NCBI GenBank assembly: GCA_937876775.1
Contig: CALEFA010000009.1
Coordinates: forward strand, 1-62,327
From: an uncultured Rhodobiaceae bacterium
GTDB taxonomy: Bacteria; Pseudomonadota; Alphaproteobacteria; RS24
Direction of reading: 5' to 3'
Length of the DNA: 62,327 nt
The position numbers and the translations under genes were made by a program. Shown here piece by piece: positions 44,494 through 61,977 of this stretch; the stretch's first letter is position 1; the number at the start of each line of letters is the position of its first letter. The notes below the pieces were generated by a model. The model was not told the origin of the DNA. It did no database searches and saw nothing but the letters and a program-made list of their open reading frames with translations.

Positions 44494-46413
44494 ATGGGAA
44501 AAGTAATTGGCATTGACTTGGGCACCACAAATAGTTGCGTCGCCGTTATGGACGGCAGCACGCCTAAGGTTATCGAAAACGCCGAGGGCGCGCGGACAAC
44601 ACCATCAATGGTGGCGTTCACAGCTGACGGAGAAAAACTGGTTGGGCAACCGGCCAAACGTCAGGCGGTGACCAATCCGGAAAACACACTCTTTGCCATT
44701 AAACGGCTGATTGGCCGTCGCTTTAGCGACCCCGCCACCAAAAAAGACATGGATATGGTGCCGTATAATATCGTTGCCTCAGAAGGTGGAGACGCGTGGG
44801 TGAAAGCCAATGACGAGACCTATTCGCCATCGCAAATCTCGGCCTTTATTCTGCAAAAAATGAAAGAAACCGCTGAAGATTACCTCGGCGAGAAAGTCAC
44901 CCAAGCGGTGATTACCGTGCCGGCCTATTTTAACGACGCCCAGCGCCAAGCCACAAAAGATGGCGGCAAAATTGCCGGCCTCGAAGTGCTGCGCATTATC
45001 AATGAGCCAACGGCGGCTTCTTTGGCCTATGGTCTGGATAAGAATGACGGCCAAACTATTGCGGTTTACGACTTGGGGGGCGGCACATTTGACGTTTCAA
45101 TTCTTGAGATTGGCGACGGTGTTTTCGAAGTGAAATCAACCAATGGTGATACTTTCCTCGGCGGTGAAGATTTTGACATGGCGCTGGTTGAGCATATGGC
45201 GGCCGAGTTCAAAAAAGAAAATGGCGTTGATCTGACTGGCGACAAGCTCGCCCTGCAACGTTTGAAAGAAGCGGCAGAGAAAGCCAAAATTGAGCTGTCA
45301 TCATCCAGCGCAACGGAAATTAACCTGCCATTCATCACGGCAGATGCGAGCGGCCCAAAACACATGAATATGAAGCTGACGCGCTCAGCTTTTGAAGCCC
45401 TGGTTGACAAGCTGGTGCAGCGCACCCGCAAGCCATGCGAAGACGCGCTGAAAGATGCCGGCATTAAATTGTCTGAAATTGACGAAGTGGTGCTGGTCGG
45501 CGGGCAAACCCGCATGCCGCGCATTCGCGAATTTGTGAAAGATGTGTTCGGCAAAGAACCAAATATGAGTGTGAACCCAGACGAAGTGGTGGCCATGGGC
45601 GCTGCCATTCAAGCTGGCGTGCTGCAAGGCGATGTAAAAGATGTGTTGCTGCTCGATGTGACCCCGCTGTCGCTGGGCATTGAAACATTGGGTGGCGTGT
45701 TTACCCGCCTGATTGACCGCAACACCACAATCCCAACCAAGAAGTCACAAGTCTTTTCAACCGCCGATGACAATCAATCTGCGGTGACGATTTCTGTGTG
45801 CCAGGGTGAACGCGAAATGGCCGCAGACAATAAAAACCTCGGCCAGTTCAACCTTGAGGGCATTCCACCAGCACCGCGCGGCGTGCCACAAATTGAAGTG
45901 ACTTTCGACATTGATGCCAATGGTCTGGTCAATGTGTCAGCCGCCGATAAGGCGACCGGCAAAGAGCAAGCCATTCGCATTGAAGCCTCTGGCGGTCTGT
46001 CTGATGACGACATTGAGCAAATGGTCAAAGACGCAGAAGCCAATGCGGAAGCCGATAAACAGCGCCGCGAAGCTGTGGAAATCCGCAATAATGCTGAAGG
46101 GCTTATTCACGGAACGGAGAAATCAATCGCTGACAATGAAGAGCTGATTGAGGGTGCCGACAAAGAAGCCGCTGAAGCCGCCATTGCCGAGTTGAAAACC
46201 GCCCTTGAGGGTGAAGACAATGACGCCATTAATGAGAAGGCACAGGCCTTGTCTCAGGCAGCGATGAAAATCGGTGAAGCAATTTACAAAGCCCAGCAAG
46301 CAGAAAGCGAAGCCGCAGCGGCCGCCGATGCCGGTGAAGGCGATGATAATATTGTCGACGCTGAATATGAAGAAGTTGTCGATGAGGACGCTGACGATCA
46401 AAAGGCCTCGTAA
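44494..46413 (+). CDS. dnaK: molecular chaperone DnaK (Hsp70)
   Basis: ATP-driven chaperone for nascent and misfolded proteins. The 639-aa protein has the Hsp70 signatures [35 protein letters not shown] and [15 protein letters not shown] in the ATPase domain, the [18 protein letters not shown] linker, the substrate domain and a disordered acidic tail ending in [10 protein letters not shown]. It heads dnaK-dnaJ behind an RpoH-type promoter. Confidence 0.99.
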
Positions 46414-46452
46414 GTCGACTGCCCACTGACCGTTTGAGACAGGAGCCGTCGC

Positions 46453-47568
46453 ATGGCGAAAACCGATTTTTATGAACAGCTCGGCGTTGACCGTTCGGCC
46501 AATGCGGCTGAGCTGAAATCGGCCTATCGTAAGCTTGCCAAAAAATATCACCCAGATGTGAATCCGGGTGATGCGGCGGCGGAACAAAAGTTCAAGGAAG
46601 TCTCAGAGGCCTATGAGGTGCTGAAAGACGACCAAAGCCGCGCCGCCTATGACCAATATGGCCATGCTGCCTTTGAAAATGGCCGAGGTGGCCAGCGCGG
46701 CGGTGGCGGCTTTAGCGGCGACTTCGGCGGTATGGGCGATATCTTCGAAGAATTCTTCGGCGGTCAGCGCCGGCAACAACGCCAGCAAGCGCGTCGTGGC
46801 GGTGATTTACGCATTGAAATTGAAATCACACTGGAAGACGCCTTCAATGCCACAGAAAAACAAATCAATCTAACGCGGGCCGGTTCTTGCGGCACCTGCA
46901 AGGGCTCGGGCGCGCGCGATGGCAGCGCCCCAACCACCTGCGGCGTGTGCAATGGCCACGGCAAGGTGCGTGCGCAGCAGGGTTTCTTCATGGTCGAGCG
47001 GGCCTGCCATAATTGCCAAGGGCGCGGCCAGGTTGCGCAAGACCCGTGCGGCGATTGCAATGGGCGCGGCACCACTCAGCAACAGCGCAATCTGACCGTA
47101 TCAGTGCCAGCCGGTGTTGAAGACGGCACGCGTATTCGCCTGACTGGCGAAGGCAATGCCGGCGGGCCGGGAGCAACGCCGGGCGATTTATATGTATTTG
47201 TTAACGTGCGTCCGCATGCGTATTTGCAACGCGACGGCGCCGATTTATTGTGCGCCATTCCGATTGCTTTTGACTTGGCCGCGCGCGGCGGCACATTGAA
47301 TGTACCGCTGCTCAATGGCAAGCGAGTAAAGCTGAGTATTCCAAGCGGCGCCCAATCAGGCCAGCAATTCCGCCTGCGCGGCAAAGGCATGCCGGTATTG
47401 CGCTCGCGTTCGCATGGCGATCTATATGTGCAGATTGACGTTGAAGTGCCCAGCGGCTTAAACAAAAAACAGCAAGCCTTGCTCGATGCCTTCACCGGAA
47501 GCCTCGACGACAATAATTATCCCGACGTCAAAGATTTCGACACAAGAAGCAATAAAGCCAATAGCTAA
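46453..47568 (+). CDS. dnaJ: chaperone protein DnaJ (Hsp40)
   Basis: Delivers substrates to DnaK and triggers its ATPase. The 371-aa protein has the J domain with YHPDVNPGD (HPD about 33-35), a Gly/Phe-rich region, four zinc-binding CxxCxGxG repeats ([32 protein letters not shown], about 144-206) and the C-terminal peptide-binding domains. The ATG is 7 nt from AGGAG and 39 bp after dnaK. Confidence 0.99.
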
Positions 47569-47597
47569 GCGGCCGGCGCCCTGCTATATTTAGCGCC

Positions 47598-48395
47598 ATG
47601 AGATTAGTAGTAAATGGATGTGCGGGTCGCATGGGGCAAAGCCTCATCAGACTCATTCAGGCCGATAACGGGTTAACCCTTGTCGGTGGTTTGGAGCAAG
47701 CCGGAAGCACCGCATTGGGTGCCGATTTGGGCGCGCTGGCAGGCATGGCGCCGCTTGGCATCAAGGCCAGCGACAATCATCTCGACTTATTAGCCAATGC
47801 CAATGCGGTGATTGATTTTACCGCACCGGAAGCCAGTGTGGAGCTGGCAGCGGCGGCGGCACAAGCGCGCATTGTGCATATTATTGGCACCACGGGTTTT
47901 GATGCGGCGCAAGAAGACGCCATTGCCGCAGCTGGCCGCCATGCGACGATTGTCAAATCCGGCAATATGAGCCTTGGCGTTAATCTTTTGTCGGTGCTGG
48001 TGACGCAAGCGGCCGCCGCACTCGGTGATGATTGGGACATTGAAATTTTCGACATGCACCACCGCCATAAAGTTGATGCACCCTCGGGCACGGCCTTGCT
48101 GTTGGGCGACGCCGCAGCGCGCGGGCGGAAAGTTGCCTTGAGCGACAAGATGCAATCTGGCCGCGACGGCATAACCGGCGCCCGCGAGGCCGGCGCAATT
48201 GGCTTTAGCGCCCTGCGCGGGGGCAGCGTGGTCGGCGACCATGAGGTTATTTTTGCCGGTGACGGCGAACAAATTCGGCTGACCCATCGCGCCGAAAACC
48301 GCGATATTTTTGCCCGTGGCGCGCTGAAGGCGGCGCAATGGGCGGCTGGGCAAAAGCCTGGCGTCTATTCAATGCAAGACGTGCTCGGCCTATAG
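47598..48395 (+). CDS. dapB: 4-hydroxy-tetrahydrodipicolinate reductase
   Basis: NAD(P)H-dependent step of lysine and diaminopimelate synthesis. The 265-aa protein has the Rossmann motif [14 protein letters not shown], the GTTGFD motif, and the catalytic [19 protein letters not shown]. It follows dnaJ by 29 bp, a linkage common in Alphaproteobacteria. No obvious ribosome site precedes the ATG, but a TATATT lies 7 nt upstream. Confidence 0.96.
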
Positions 48396-48422
48396 CCGCG
48401 CCATATTCAAGGGGAAATCAAA

Positions 48423-49040
48423 ATGAGCCAACTCGTTCTCGTGCGCCATGGGCAAAGTGAGTGGAATGAAAAAAACCTGTTCACTGGCTGGCGTGATCCG
48501 GATCTGACCGCCAAGGGCATTGAAGAAGCCCGCGCCGCCGGTCGTGCGCTGAAGGCGGCGCAGGCGAAATTTGACATTGGCTATACATCTAATTTGCAGC
48601 GGGCACAAAAAACCTGCGCATTGCTGTTGGAAGAATTGCAACGTAGCGACCTGCCGGTGACCCGCCATGAGGCATTAAACGAGCGCGATTATGGCGATTT
48701 ATCCGGCCTCAACAAAGATGATGCGCGCGAAAAATGGGGCGAGGGGCAAGTGCATATTTGGCGCCGCTCTTTCGATATTCCACCGCCCGGCGGCGAAAGC
48801 CTGAAGGATACAGCCGAACGTGTCTTGCCATATTTTGATGCGGAGATTATGCCGCAAATAAAAGCCGGACAGAATATTCTCATCGCCGCTCATGGCAATT
48901 CATTGCGCGCTTTGGTGATGCAGCTTGATGGTTTGACCCGCGAAGAGATTATTGACGTGAATATTGGCACAGGCGAGCCTTACTGCTATCAGCTCGACGC
49001 CAATGGCGCGGTCATCAGTAAAGAAATTCTCGCTACCTAA
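48423..49040 (+). CDS. gpmA: 2,3-bisphosphoglycerate-dependent phosphoglycerate mutase
   Basis: Interconverts 3- and 2-phosphoglycerate in glycolysis and gluconeogenesis. The 205-aa protein is the short alphaproteobacterial form. It has the phosphohistidine motif [33 protein letters not shown], and the second catalytic His in [21 protein letters not shown] precedes the ATG; it follows dapB by 27 bp, so it may belong to the same transcript. Confidence 0.95.
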
Positions 49041-49052
49041 TTGCCGCTGGGG

Positions 49053-49574
49053 CTAATGCACCATCTCTGGCGCTTTGTGGCTGGATAGCGCATTGCGTAA
49101 TTGGTTGGCCAAACCGGCGCGTTCGTCTGGCGACAAAAATCCGCCAATACAAACATATTTGCCGTGCGACGACAGAATCAGCGAACCAATTTCATCGGCC
49201 TCCGTGCCTTCATTCTCTAGCGTCAGGCGCACCCAATAAGGGTTGAAATGCCATGACCGCTCGCGACCATTGGCGCTGACTTGGGTGACCGTCAGGCGAT
49301 CATTGTTGAGTTCTATTTTTTCGTGTCGTCGCGCTTGGCGGTAATTCAGTTTGAAAAACACATAAAGCAAAATCACATCAAGGCCGAAAAAGCCAAACAC
49401 TGGCCATGCGCCAAGCGCCCAGAAAAAACCGCCAGCAACCAGACTGACGGCGGCGAAACAAATAATCAGAATTGAAAAGCCACGAGCGGACAAAGACACA
49501 TTCGGTCGCAGGACAAAAGAAAGCCCCGCCGATCGATCGGTCCGTCCCTCATCAATGTATATGTCAGTTATCAT
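49053..49574 (-). CDS. DUF2244 family membrane protein
   Basis: A 173-aa protein with two adjacent hydrophobic segments (about 33-75: FSILIICFAAVSLVAGGFFWALG, then PVFGFFGLDVILLYVFF) between soluble ends. The C-terminal half (RQARRHEKIELNNDRLTV..., WVRLTLENEG, GSLILSSHGKYVCIGGFLSPDER) is the DUF2244 pattern. Members commonly lie next to nth in Alphaproteobacteria, as here. Function is unknown. Confidence 0.88.
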   Translation of the reverse strand: MITDIYIDEGRTDRSAGLSFVLRPNVSLSARGFSILIICFAAVSLVAGGFFWALGAWPVFGFFGLDVILLYVFFKLNYRQARRHEKIELNNDRLTVTQVSANGRERSWHFNPYWVRLTLENEGTEADEIGSLILSSHGKYVCIGGFLSPDERAGLANQLRNALSSHKAPEMVH

Positions 49575-49666
49575 GAGTGAAAAATAGGCCTAAAAACAAA
49601 GAAAACAAGGCCGCCAAGACATATACGCTGAGTTGCCATTGGCGCCGGAGAGGCTTAGGATAGGGC

Positions 49667-50302
49667 ATGAAAAAGGCAGATATTCTCAAATTCTTTGAAC
49701 GGCTCTCCCAAACCGCCAGCGAACCCCAAACCGAACTCAATTTTATCAATGATTTCACATTGTTAGTGGCTGTCGTTCTGTCCGCGCAAGCGACCGATAA
49801 AGGGGTTAATAAGGCCACAGAGAACCTGTTCAAACGGGCTGACACGGCAAGCAAAATGGCGGCGCTTGGCGAAAGCCAAATCCGCGAGGAAATTAAATCC
49901 ATCGGCCTGTATCGCAATAAAGCGAAGAATGTTCTCGCCCTGTCGGAAATTCTGCGCGACCAATTTGACGGTGTGGTGCCGCGCGATCGCGAGTCCTTGA
50001 TGAGCCTGCCTGGTGTTGGCCGCAAGACCGCTAATGTGGTGATGAATGAGGCTTTTGGCGAGGCGACATTTGCTGTCGACACGCATGTTTTCCGGCTCGG
50101 CAATCGCACCGGTCTGGCGCCCGGCAAAACTGTTTTGGAGGTGGAGAAAAAACTCGACAAACGGGTGCCCGAGCCCTATCGCCTCCACGCCCATCATTGG
50201 CTGATTTTACATGGCCGATATATTTGTGTCGCGCGTAAACCAAAATGTTATGAATGCGCTGTCGCTGACTTATGCAGCTTCCGCGCCAAAACCAAAGTTT
50301 GA
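49667..50302 (+). CDS. nth: endonuclease III
   Basis: Base-excision repair glycosylase/AP lyase for oxidised pyrimidines. The 211-aa protein has the helix-hairpin-helix LPGVGRKTANVV with the catalytic Lys, the catalytic Asp in VDTHVFR, and a [4Fe-4S] motif near the C-terminus (Cys-X6-Cys-X2-Cys-X5-Cys within CVARKPKCYECAVADLC). It is divergent from DUF2244 across 92 bp and 18 bp ahead of the PfkB gene. Confidence 0.97.
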   Translation: MKKADILKFFERLSQTASEPQTELNFINDFTLLVAVVLSAQATDKGVNKATENLFKRADTASKMAALGESQIREEIKSIGLYRNKAKNVLALSEILRDQFDGVVPRDRESLMSLPGVGRKTANVVMNEAFGEATFAVDTHVFRLGNRTGLAPGKTVLEVEKKLDKRVPEPYRLHAHHWLILHGRYICVARKPKCYECAVADLCSFRAKTKV

Positions 50303-50320
50303 CCCCGAGAGGAAATCCCC

Positions 50321-51325
50321 ATGTCTGCCACACTGATAACCGGAATGGGCGCCGCCCTTGTCGATTTATTCGCCAATGTAAGCGACGCACAATTACAAGA
50401 ATTGGGCAGCGCCAAAGCGTCGATGTCGCTGATTGATGCGGCGCAGTCGATGCGCTTACAAGCCGAGGTCGAGGTGCACAGTCAACGCCCGGGTGGCTCG
50501 GCCGCCAATACGGTGGCCGGTATCGCGGCGCTTGGCCAACCCGCAGGGTTTCTCGGCAAGACCGGAGATGACGCGCTTGGCGGCGTGTTTAGCGAAGCCT
50601 TCGAAACCTTAAATGTCCGTTTTCCGGTAACCCCATGCGACGCCAGCCAGCATCCGACGGGGCATTGTCTGGTGCTCATCACCCCCGACGCCGAACGCAC
50701 CATGCATACGGTGCTGGGCGCGTCTGTGATGACGGCGCGCGATGATATGGACGGCGATTTGCTGGCCCAAACCGGACTATTGTTTTCTGAAGGCTATGTG
50801 TGGGACAGCCCATCAGCCCGCGACGGATTTTTGAGTGCGGCGCAAACCGTGCGCGCGCAAGGTGGCAAGGTAGCTTTTTCGCTGGCCGATGGGTTTTGCG
50901 TCGAACGTCACCATGCTGATTTTCTTGCCCTGCTTGACGGGCAGGTTGATGTTGTTCTGGCCAATAAGGTCGAGGCTGAGGCGCTGTTTGGCTGCAGCGA
51001 CCCTGCCGGTTTGGCGGCCAAAGTGCAGGGCACTGATGTGCTTTTGTCGGTAACGCTGGGGGCTGAGGGGGCGCTGATTGTTGATGCCAATGGCGCCCAG
51101 CTTGTTGCCGCCGAACGGATTTCCGATGTCGTCGATTTGACCGGCGCTGGCGATCAATATGCGGCCGGCTTTTTGGCCGCTTTGCACAATGGGGTCAGCC
51201 CGAAAGAAGCCGCACATATAGGCAATCTGGCGGCCAGTGAAGTGATCCGCCATATTGGCCCGCGGCCACAATCTGACGTGCGCGCGCTGCTGGCAGAGCA
51301 GGGTTTAGACTTTATTCGAGATTAG
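50321..51325 (+). CDS. PfkB-family sugar/nucleoside kinase (adenosine-kinase-like)
   Basis: A ribokinase-like kinase of 334 aa. It has the N-terminal [29 protein letters not shown], and the catalytic [17 protein letters not shown] with its Asp base. Relatives in Alphaproteobacteria are annotated adenosine kinase; the true substrate cannot be read from sequence. GAGAGGA precedes the ATG. The 3' end overlaps coaA by 4 nt, tail to tail. Confidence 0.88.
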
Positions 51326-52272
51326 ATTTTGCGCAATAAAACCTGATCGATTTGGTGGGTGCTGCTTTTGTGCAAAATCAAATCGGCGCGGCCGCGTGTC
51401 GGCAAAATATTTTCCATTAAATTGGTCATATTAATGCGCCGCCAAATGTCGTGCGCGGTGGCGCGCGCGGCCTCATCGTCAAGGTCGGCATAGCGACGGA
51501 AATACGCGCCCGGTTCGCGGAACGCGGTATGGCGCAAGGACATGAAACGTTCGATATACCATTCTTCAATGGTCTCGACCTCGGCATCAATATAAATTGA
51601 AAAGTCGAAATAATCAGAGACAAAGGGAATCTCATTGCCTTCTTTGGCCAATGAAGCTGGTTGCAAAACATTCAGCCCCTCAACGATCAGCACGTCGGGT
51701 TGGCTGACGACAATGTCTTCATCGGGGAGAATATCATAGGCTTCATGCGAGTAGACCGGCGCTCTGACTTCTGACTGGCCCGATTTCACCTCGGACAAAA
51801 ACCGCCGCATACTGCGCAAGTCAAAGCTTTCGGGAAAGCCCTTGCGTTGCATAAGCCCGCGTTCTTCAAGCGTCGCATTGGGAAAGAGAAAGCCATCCGT
51901 GGTGATCAGCTCGACCTTGGGGTGCGAAGGCCAGCGGGCCAACATGTCGCGCAAAATCCGCGATGTCGTGCTTTTGCCCACGGCCACTGAGCCGGCGACG
52001 CCAATAATAAAGGGCACTTTAATTTCGCGCCCCAGAAAGGCATCGGTCGCGCCATGAAGGTTTTGCGAGGCCTCCACATATAAATTGAGTAGGCGCGACA
52101 GCGGCAGATAAATTTCTTCAACCTCGTCGAGCGAGACCGTCTCGCCACGGCCACGCAATTTCTCTAGCTCGGATTCGGTGAGCGTTAATTCGGCGTCTTT
52201 GCGCAAACGGCCCCATTCCGCGGCCGTGAACGAGCGATAAGGCGAAATGTCTTTTGAGCTTCCCCCGAACAC
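51322..52272 (-). CDS. coaA: pantothenate kinase, type I
   Basis: First step of coenzyme A synthesis. The protein has the P-loop [15 protein letters not shown] (about 90), the [18 protein letters not shown] motif, [12 protein letters not shown] and [12 protein letters not shown] start it at GTG 52272, 4 bp after the hisE stop, which gives 316 aa, exactly the E. coli length. A longer frame to 52353 would overlap hisE by 77 nt and add a non-conserved extension. It ends the his operon, as in many Alphaproteobacteria. Confidence 0.94.
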
Positions 52273-52276
52273 GCGC

Positions 52277-52600
52277 TTATTCTTTTCCGCGCGCGGCTTT
52301 TTCAGCCAGGCCTGAGCGTCCGCGACGCGCCGCCAATTGATCCATGACAGCATCCAGCGTCACCTCGCGCGCGGCCAAGACAACCAGAAGGTGATACAGC
52401 ACATCGGCGGCCTCACCAATCAACGCGTCGTCATCTTCGGTCAGCGCCGCGGTGATGGTTTCGATTGCTTCCTCGCCTAATTTGCGCGTTGCGCGCGGCA
52501 AATCGGCCAGCAGTTGCGCCGAATAGCTCTCATCTGGCGAGGCGCCACGACGGGTTAGAATCTCTGCGAATAAGTCATCAAGTTGCGAGGTTTTGGTCAC
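52277..52600 (-). CDS. hisE: phosphoribosyl-ATP pyrophosphatase
   Basis: Second step of histidine synthesis. The 107-aa all-alpha MazG-like protein has the motif [15 protein letters not shown] and [16 protein letters not shown]. The start is GTG at 52600 with AAAGGA 7 nt upstream. It is 32 bp downstream of hisF. Confidence 0.95.
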
Positions 52601-56005: not shown

Positions 56006-56725
56006 TTACGCTCCTGCTTGGGTCGCAACCAGTTGCCAATTCGGATTGGCACTCTTAAGAGGCCGCTCGAAAGTCCATAAATCAACGCTTGCCACCGGTT
56101 CGGCATCATCGCGGGTGGCGCCCGTGTGCAGATAAGAAATCAGCTCGGCCCGATAGCGGACATCAAGCTGAACAATGCCGTTTTCAATACGCGCGTCTTC
56201 CAACACCGGACGGTCGAGGCGGGTAATCTGCGTTTCCAACTGCTGGCCTTCGGCTTGGCGCGTGCTTATCGCACCGGCAAAGCCGGCATAGACGTCAGCG
56301 CCGAGAAAATCGCGCACATCGTCCAACCGCTCTGCAGCAAAGGCTGTCAAAATCATTTCATAGGCGCGCGTCGCGCCATCGACAAAGCGATCGGCGTCAA
56401 ACTCAGGGTCGGCCGCTTGAAAAAACGCGAGCCCGCGTCCCTCATTCAGGTCTTGCACCAAATCTTCGACTGGCTCGGTTTTGGCTGTCTCAGTTTCGAC
56501 CGGCTCAGTTTCAACGAGGCGCAAATCCGGTGCCGATTTTGCTTCCGACGACACAGCCGCTTTTTGTTTCTTGCCCAATGCCTCGCGATTCAGCCCATAG
56601 GCGCCACGGCGCGACTTGCCCGCGTCTTCGTCATTGCGCATGCCCAAGACGCTGCGCAATTTTATGCCGACAAAAATGACAATAATTAGCAAAATTAAAT
56701 TTAACGGATCGATGGTGCACCTCAC
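56006..56725 (-). CDS. Tim44/TimA-like domain protein
   Basis: A 239-aa protein with one N-terminal membrane segment (LILLIIVIFVGIKL, about 9-23), a charged linker, and a C-terminal Tim44-like domain (about 95-239: FVDGATRAYEMILTAFAAERLDDVRDFLGADVYAGFAGAI, VDLWTFERPLKSANPNWQLVAT). Bacterial members are inner-membrane proteins of uncertain role. The start is GTG at 56725 with only a weak ribosome site. The stop is 1 bp before the Smr gene. Confidence 0.88.
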   Translation of the reverse strand: MRCTIDPLNLILLIIVIFVGIKLRSVLGMRNDEDAGKSRRGAYGLNREALGKKQKAAVSSEAKSAPDLRLVETEPVETETAKTEPVEDLVQDLNEGRGLAFFQAADPEFDADRFVDGATRAYEMILTAFAAERLDDVRDFLGADVYAGFAGAISTRQAEGQQLETQITRLDRPVLEDARIENGIVQLDVRYRAELISYLHTGATRDDAEPVASVDLWTFERPLKSANPNWQLVATQAGA

Positions 56726-60719: not shown

Positions 60720-61556
60720 CTACTTTTTACGCATTTCAGGGTTTGGTTCATGGTCATTGTAGAGGTTCAAAATGGCGCTGGCCACCTCCTCGATAGAACG
60801 CCGCGTCACGTCCAAAACCGGCCATTTTTGCCGCGCAAACAAGCGGCGCGCATCAGCGGTTTCGGTTTTGATAAGCTCTGGATCAACATATTCGGTTTCG
60901 GCGTCTTCGTTCAAACTCATCAAGCGGTTTTTACGCACTTGCATCAACCGCTCTGTGCTGGTGGTCAGGCCAACGATGAGCGGGCGCCGCGCATCGAGCA
61001 ATTCTTGCGGCGGCGCAACACCCGGCACCAGCGGCACATTCGCCGCCTTAATGCCGCGATTGGCCAAATACATACAAGTCGGGGTTTTCGAGGTGCGGCT
61101 GACGCCGGTTATAATAATGTCAGCGTCATCGAGATCGCCCTGGCTTTGGCCATCGTCGTGTTGAATGGTGTAATTGAGCGCGGCAATGCGGCGAAAATAA
61201 TCGGTGTCCAGAGCGTGCTGCCCGCCCGGTTTGCCGCTAATTTCAGCGTTCAAATAAGCCCCCAAAGACGCAACGAAAGGGTCGAGCACCGACATGCAAG
61301 GAATATTCAGCTGGTCGCAAGCCTGTTGCAGTTTTCTGCGTAAGTCGACATCCAAAATTGAATACATCACCGGCCCCGGATTCTCCGTGATCGAGTCAAT
61401 GGCGCGCGTCAGCGCCTTTTGACCGCGCACCAGACCGTAGGAATGTTCAACCGCTTGCGCGGCAACAAATTGTGCGCAGACCGCTTTTGCCAGAGCGTTA
61501 ACGGTTTCACCCGTGCTGTCAGAAATCATATGTAGGTGAAAAAAGGTGACGCTCAC
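60720..61556 (-). CDS. ppsR: pyruvate,phosphate dikinase / PEP synthase regulatory protein (DUF299, RP001 homologue)
   Basis: A bifunctional Ser/Thr kinase and Pi-dependent phosphorylase that switches PPDK or PEP synthase on and off. The 278-aa protein has HMISDSTGETVNALAKAV, the ADP-binding P-loop GVSRTSKTPTCMYLANRG, and DVTRRSIEEVAS. I set the start at GTG 61556, which has GGAG 5 nt upstream; a TTG at 61571 lacks a ribosome site. In Rickettsia this gene is RP001 and borders the replication origin, as proposed here. Confidence 0.93.
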   Translation of the reverse strand: MSVTFFHLHMISDSTGETVNALAKAVCAQFVAAQAVEHSYGLVRGQKALTRAIDSITENPGPVMYSILDVDLRRKLQQACDQLNIPCMSVLDPFVASLGAYLNAEISGKPGGQHALDTDYFRRIAALNYTIQHDDGQSQGDLDDADIIITGVSRTSKTPTCMYLANRGIKAANVPLVPGVAPPQELLDARRPLIVGLTTSTERLMQVRKNRLMSLNEDAETEYVDPELIKTETADARRLFARQKWPVLDVTRRSIEEVASAILNLYNDHEPNPEMRKK

Positions 61557-61667
61557 GTCGGCTCCAGACAAATGTGAATTATGTTAATAGCGAGGATAAG
61601 TCGCCCCCCACAGCAAGCCAAGCCCTTTTGTTCACAATCGGTGTTTTTCCATACGCTGGTTTGAGGC

Positions 61668-61680
61668 GAGTTATTAACTC
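61668..61680. repeat. 13-bp palindrome inside the candidate origin
   Basis: GAGTTATTAACTC is a perfect inverted repeat around a single central T. It lies about 30 bp from the first TTGTTCACA and 65 bp before the tandem DnaA-box pair. It is not the CtrA motif (TTAA-N7-TTAA). It may bind a replication-control protein; none can be named. Confidence 0.5.
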
Positions 61681-61928
61681 ATCACCACCACTTTAGAATA
61701 ACGGGGACAAAGCCGCCGACGATATAGTGAGGTAATTCATCCCCATTGTTCACATTATTCACATCTCTGCTTGCGTCAGTATGCGCAGCGATTTTCTGGC
61801 TGATTGTTTATAAGATGCGCATGATTTTGAGTTTTCCTCATTGTTCACAAGTAGCTGTCCACAGGCCACGATTGTGGGCAAAAGCAGGCCAAATGAATAA
61901 TCCCCAGAAAGCTTGCGACACAACAACA

Positions 61929-61960
61929 ACTACTATTATTTATCTATATAAATAGAATAG
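61929..61960. other. AT-rich stretch next to hemE, candidate DNA-unwinding element
   Basis: In 61931-61960 only 4 of 30 bases are G or C. It lies beside the DnaA-box cluster on its hemE side, the arrangement known from the Caulobacter origin. It also contains TA-rich hexamers that could form part of the hemE promoter, so the two functions may overlap. Confidence 0.55.
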
Positions 61961-61977
61961 TTCAGTGAAAGTTTAAT

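Follow-up and report, generated by a model that had tools for sequence, protein, structure and literature searches.

The locus analyzed here raises the question of where an uncultured Rhodobiaceae bacterium begins to replicate its chromosome. The stretch of 62,327 nucleotides (the window) is an entire contig, C9, of a 1.717-Mb assembly in 80 contigs, and near its end the divergent genes ppsR and hemE enclose a long intergenic gap. The preliminary description had offered this gap as a candidate chromosomal origin, a proposal that stood up on the evidence of a GC-skew switch, a unique DnaA-box cluster, nearby parS and parAB, and the conservation of the gene pair. On these sequence data, the gap is predicted with a probability of about 95% to be the only replication origin of the chromosome, belonging to the hemE/ppsR type that is common among Alphaproteobacteria, and its location is strongly supported by several independent computational lines. 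The origin of Caulobacter crescentus was located experimentally between the hemE and ppsR/RP001 genes and that of Rickettsia prowazekii has been placed there too (PMC1914354).

An alignment with relatives, whose start codons share its register, placed the ppsR start at the GTG codon at 61556, giving a gap of 421 bp (Table 1). It contains the longest non-coding stretch of the window, as had been claimed, with 385 bp compared to 105 bp for the next when non-coding is defined as free of any stop-free frame of at least 110 codons. The gap is more AT-rich than the genome, with a GC content of approximately 42% vs 51-60% over the window, and an Rfam search of the window for RNA elements gave no matches. 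Pfam matches bore out the proposed gene order ppsR-maf-aroE-coaE-dnaQ-secB-fxsA-tim44-smr. Among 80 named loci, ppsR was accompanied by maf, aroE, and coaE in 69-79 and adjoined hemE in 75, including Caulobacter, Phenylobacterium, Azospirillum, and Microvirga, and the divergent pair was kept in all family gaps with both genes present. The nearest named relatives by ppsR were "Rhodobiaceae bacterium" metagenome assemblies, namely isolate Ww409 (94% identity) and two others (78-79%). The last 55 bases of the window are identical to positions 1-55 of contig C33, on which hemE is completed, and C33 therefore follows the window; this join is based on the assembly overlap plus the completion of hemE across it, and the position of the predicted origin at a contig end thus stems from an assembly break inside hemE. 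Contig C33 carries a hemJ-like UPF0093 gene, rho, mnmE, mnmG, rsmG, parA, and parB.

Table 1. Predicted features of the ppsR-hemE gap and its boundary genes (window coordinates; arrays on the minus strand are written 5' to 3' on that strand).
Feature	Position	Strand	Evidence or remark
ppsR / RP001 / COG1806, left boundary gene	60720..61556	-	PF03618, E=1.6e-88
Predicted oriC, intergenic, divergent ppsR/hemE	61557..61977	.	gene calls, skew, conservation
Left array of three DnaA 9-mers, head to tail, TTATCCTCG/CTATTAACA/TAATTCACA	61573..61599	-	zero spacer
DnaA-box-like 9-mer TTGTTCACA	61628..61636	+	
13-bp palindrome GAGTTA-T-TAACTC	61668..61680	.	family form GATTTAWTAAATC
Central array of three DnaA 9-mers, head to tail, TCATCCCCA/TTGTTCACA/TTATTCACA	61737..61763	+	
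DnaA doublet TTTTCCTCA/TTGTTCACA	61832..61849	+	
Weaker DnaA-box-like 9-mer CTGTCCACA	61855..61863	+	
Weak DnaA-box-like 9-mer TAATCCCCA	61898..61906	+	2 mismatches; relatives TAATCCACA or TAATCAACA
AT-rich block, predicted DNA-unwinding element	61918..61971	.	window GC minimum
DnaA-trio-like run CTA-CTA-TTA-TTT-ATC (opposite 3'-GAT-GAT-AAT-AAA-TAG-5')	61930..61944	+	after CAA repeats
hemE, 5' part, cut by contig end	61978..62327	+	PF01208, E=1e-35

On the joined C9 and C33 contigs, the mean GC skew was -0.040 to the left of the gap and +0.050 to its right, with the cumulative minimum at the gap. Skew within the window was noisy, with positive values between about 45 and 52 kb; this stretch (45001-52500) inside an otherwise negative arm may represent a locally inverted segment or an effect of gene strand. 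Due to the fragmentation of the assembly into 80 contigs, genome-wide skew was taken from the near-complete relative G006 (three contigs), sampled in 20-kb stretches about every 50 kb. In its contig C3, the stretches sampled before the ppsR-hemE gap all had negative or near-zero skew; the sign changed at the gap at kilobase resolution, and positive values continued through the rest of C3 and into C2. The sole opposite switch was located near C2:630 kb, about half a chromosome from the gap; the arms would then measure ~0.90 and ~0.91 Mb, provided that C2 is joined behind C3 in line with the skew. Stretches C3:1-20000, C3:650001-670000, and C2:200001-220000 of G006 had a GC fraction of 0.45-0.48 compared to ~0.53 and are possible genomic islands.

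According to the preliminary description, a skew minimum at another site, such as next to dnaA, would count against the proposed location, and none was observed on C9 plus C33 or in the sampled stretches of G006. The dnaA gene of G006 lies at C3:701,599, 75 kb from the gap, with negative skew on both sides and no sign switch, and an origin at dnaA was rejected on these grounds. Perfect parS matches occurred in the genome only at C33:6806 and C33:8818, and parS and parAB lie 7-11 kb from the gap, similar to Caulobacter where parS is within ~8 kb of the origin (PMC4468827).

Several DnaA-box-like 9-mers had also been reported in the gap, and six were identified within one mismatch of TTATNCACA compared to 0.6 ± 0.8 in 1000 dinucleotide shuffles, none of which reached six. 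The gap was the densest ~400-bp stretch for TTATNCACA-like boxes in the 82 kb of joined sequence. TTRTTCACA occurred 17 times in the 1.717-Mb genome with 4 of the 17 inside 222 bp of the gap (Poisson P ~3e-13), and a search of the same genome for a second cluster of TTRTTCACA or TTATNCACA found none outside the gap. The boxes are variants TTGTTCACA or TTATTCACA, and the cluster is visible only with TTRTTCACA or TTATNCACA as the search pattern rather than the strict E. coli box TTATCCACA, which had no exact occurrence in the window and one-mismatch matches not above chance.

The arrangement of the boxes was conserved in the family. All 24 family gaps had at least two boxes within one mismatch (mean 6.4 vs 0.56 shuffled), and the minus-strand left array was found with equal spacing in most relatives. 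Same-strand box pairs at a distance of exactly 9 bp numbered 69 (0.6 in shuffles) and those at 18 bp numbered 31 (1.5 in shuffles), these counts coming from 24 related gaps and not being independent events; 73 other alphaproteobacterial gaps gave a 9-bp pair count of 10 without a special peak. The argument is drawn instead from distances that were kept while the intervening bases diverged, as measured in 18 aligned family gaps: 68-69 bp from left array to palindrome (segment identity 0.61), 55-57 bp from palindrome to central array (0.41), 55-100 bp from central array to doublet (0.33), 49-51 bp from doublet to TAATCCCCA (0.42), and always 32 bp, start to start, from TAATCCCCA to the trio-like run. 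This pattern would fit a pair of rigid nucleoprotein modules with a flexible linker between them. Boxes also abut outside the family: the outgroup gap L137 (Sneathiella sp. MAG) has a zero-spacer DnaA pair on each strand, TTATCCACA/TAATCCACA on the minus and TTATCCCCA/TAATCCACA on the plus strand, and the trait is thus not strictly confined to the family.

DnaA doubles as a transcription factor in Caulobacter, and the gap must hold the promoters of both ppsR and hemE. It might therefore be merely a long divergent promoter region with DnaA boxes for transcriptional control, a reading rendered very improbable by the skew switch at the gap in two genomes, the proximity of parS and parAB, a box density unique in the genome, the fixed inter-element geometry in the family, and the AT-rich trio-like block; a scan for sigma-70-like promoters, a weak instrument in alphaproteobacteria, found none. 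A true origin elsewhere, for example at dnaA, which oriC adjoins in many other bacteria, with the skew switch here left by an old origin or a rearrangement, gains some room from the fragmentation of the organism's own genome but is less probable still, given the negative skew on both sides of the distant dnaA in G006, the lack of another TTRTTCACA or TTATNCACA cluster in the organism's own genome, and a box geometry still conserved between genera, which argues for current selection on the gap element.

The AT-rich block noted in the preliminary description was confirmed and lies beside hemE, with 61922-61961 at 17.5% GC being, together with a region at 56670, the lowest 40-mer region of the window. 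The hemE side reads CAACAACAA-CTACTATTATTTATC followed by AT-rich DNA, and the 17-mer CAACAACTACTATTATT had one exact occurrence in the window. In the basal unwinding system (BUS) of Bacillus subtilis, a DnaA box, a spacer, 5'-CTA-CTA-TTA on the box strand, and AT-rich DNA are laid out in the same orientation as here. The BUS (DnaA box plus DnaA-trios) has been reported as widespread in bacteria, with a published search allowing at most 16 bp between box and trios (PMC8287927). The run here includes three or more DnaA-trios (3'-NAN-5') in succession, but unlike the BUS the nearest recognizable box, TAATCCCCA, ends 23 bp away, a distance fixed in the family, and the clear trio form CTACTATTA is limited to some family members, with others having ACATCCTTTATTT. 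YTAYTA was present in 11 of the 73 other alphaproteobacterial gaps vs 3.4 in shuffles, a modest enrichment. The block was consequently not assigned as a BUS member or DnaA-trio element because of the 23-bp spacer vs the 16 allowed, a trio form that is not family-wide, and the modest enrichment elsewhere, although its function may be similar to that of such an element.

The palindrome mentioned in the preliminary description was recovered as GAGTTA-T-TAACTC (GAGTTATTAACTC, 13 bp). It lay 77-78 bp from the conserved octamer GAGGATAA in all 19 family gaps holding that octamer, the value of 77-78 bp also being given for its distance from the left array in relatives, and it may be bound by some factor. 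A repeated genomic motif was rejected, as the pattern had a sole exact match in the organism's own assembly and G006 had 15 one-mismatch sites vs 12 for a reversed-pattern control.

Comparison with Caulobacter Cori also revealed differences in the candidate regulatory sites. The exact CtrA site TTAA-N7-TTAA was present in 17 of 21 Caulobacterales-type loci (the 21 grouped from record titles) and in none of the 24 family gaps, in which one-mismatch sites occurred at the shuffled rate, and the G-box TGATCCACA was absent from the window; family gaps have zero-spacer arrays and the palindrome instead. The genome encodes GcrA (E=2.9e-52), a CcrM-like methylase with CcrM as its best NCBIfam match over the part of the protein scanned, and a CtrA-like response regulator (L163:1480-2337; G000:C70). 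The best match of the latter was CtrA (E=2.9e-83), its 279 bits being well below the NCBIfam cut-off of 350, and it is possibly a divergent form. Direct Caulobacter-type CtrA control is unlikely here because TTAA-N7-TTAA is absent from the family gaps though a CtrA-like gene is present, and a changed CtrA specificity in this family is possible. The CcrM target GANTC occurred 44 times in the window vs ~194 in dinucleotide shuffles and not at all in the predicted origin, which fits an active CcrM. A distinct family architecture, with opposed arrays abutting at 9 bp, a fixed-distance palindrome bound by some factor, and no CtrA sites despite CtrA-like, CcrM-like, and GcrA proteins, is proposed tentatively, at somewhat below even odds. 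If correct, initiation would be under some control other than the binding of CtrA to oriC.

The layout of the gap points to a mechanism in which DnaA, encoded elsewhere on contig C61, would bind the 9-mers, fill the zero-spacer arrays, and build oligomers. The left array is oriented toward ppsR, with the opposite orientation, toward hemE, in the central array, in the doublet, and in the box on the hemE side. The hemE-proximal oligomer would extend along the single strand of the trio-like, AT-rich block, where it would open the helix, followed by helicase loading and bidirectional replication, and ParB at parS 7-9 kb away would segregate the new origins.

The Caulobacter crescentus Cori and the R. 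prowazekii oriC likewise have divergent hemE/RP001 flanks, a DnaA-box cluster, and an AT-rich block, and their size is similar to the gap, with origins of >400 bp (PMC1914354). The Escherichia coli oriC likewise has strong and weak DnaA boxes in opposed arrays and a DNA-unwinding element at one edge (PMC4285127) and differs in its flanking genes, whereas the present gap has zero-spacer tandem 9-mers and no exact TTATCCACA.

The origin site is already known for this class, and the layout with head-to-tail DnaA 9-mers, palindrome, and trio-like block is distinctive of the family. The assignment would fix the origin for alphaproteobacteria with small genomes, represented here chiefly by metagenome assemblies, a group that we infer to be marine. 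Its position helps in reading replication rates from metagenome coverage and in orienting contigs, and the family geometry provides a concrete comparison for lineage differences in the CtrA control of alphaproteobacterial origins.
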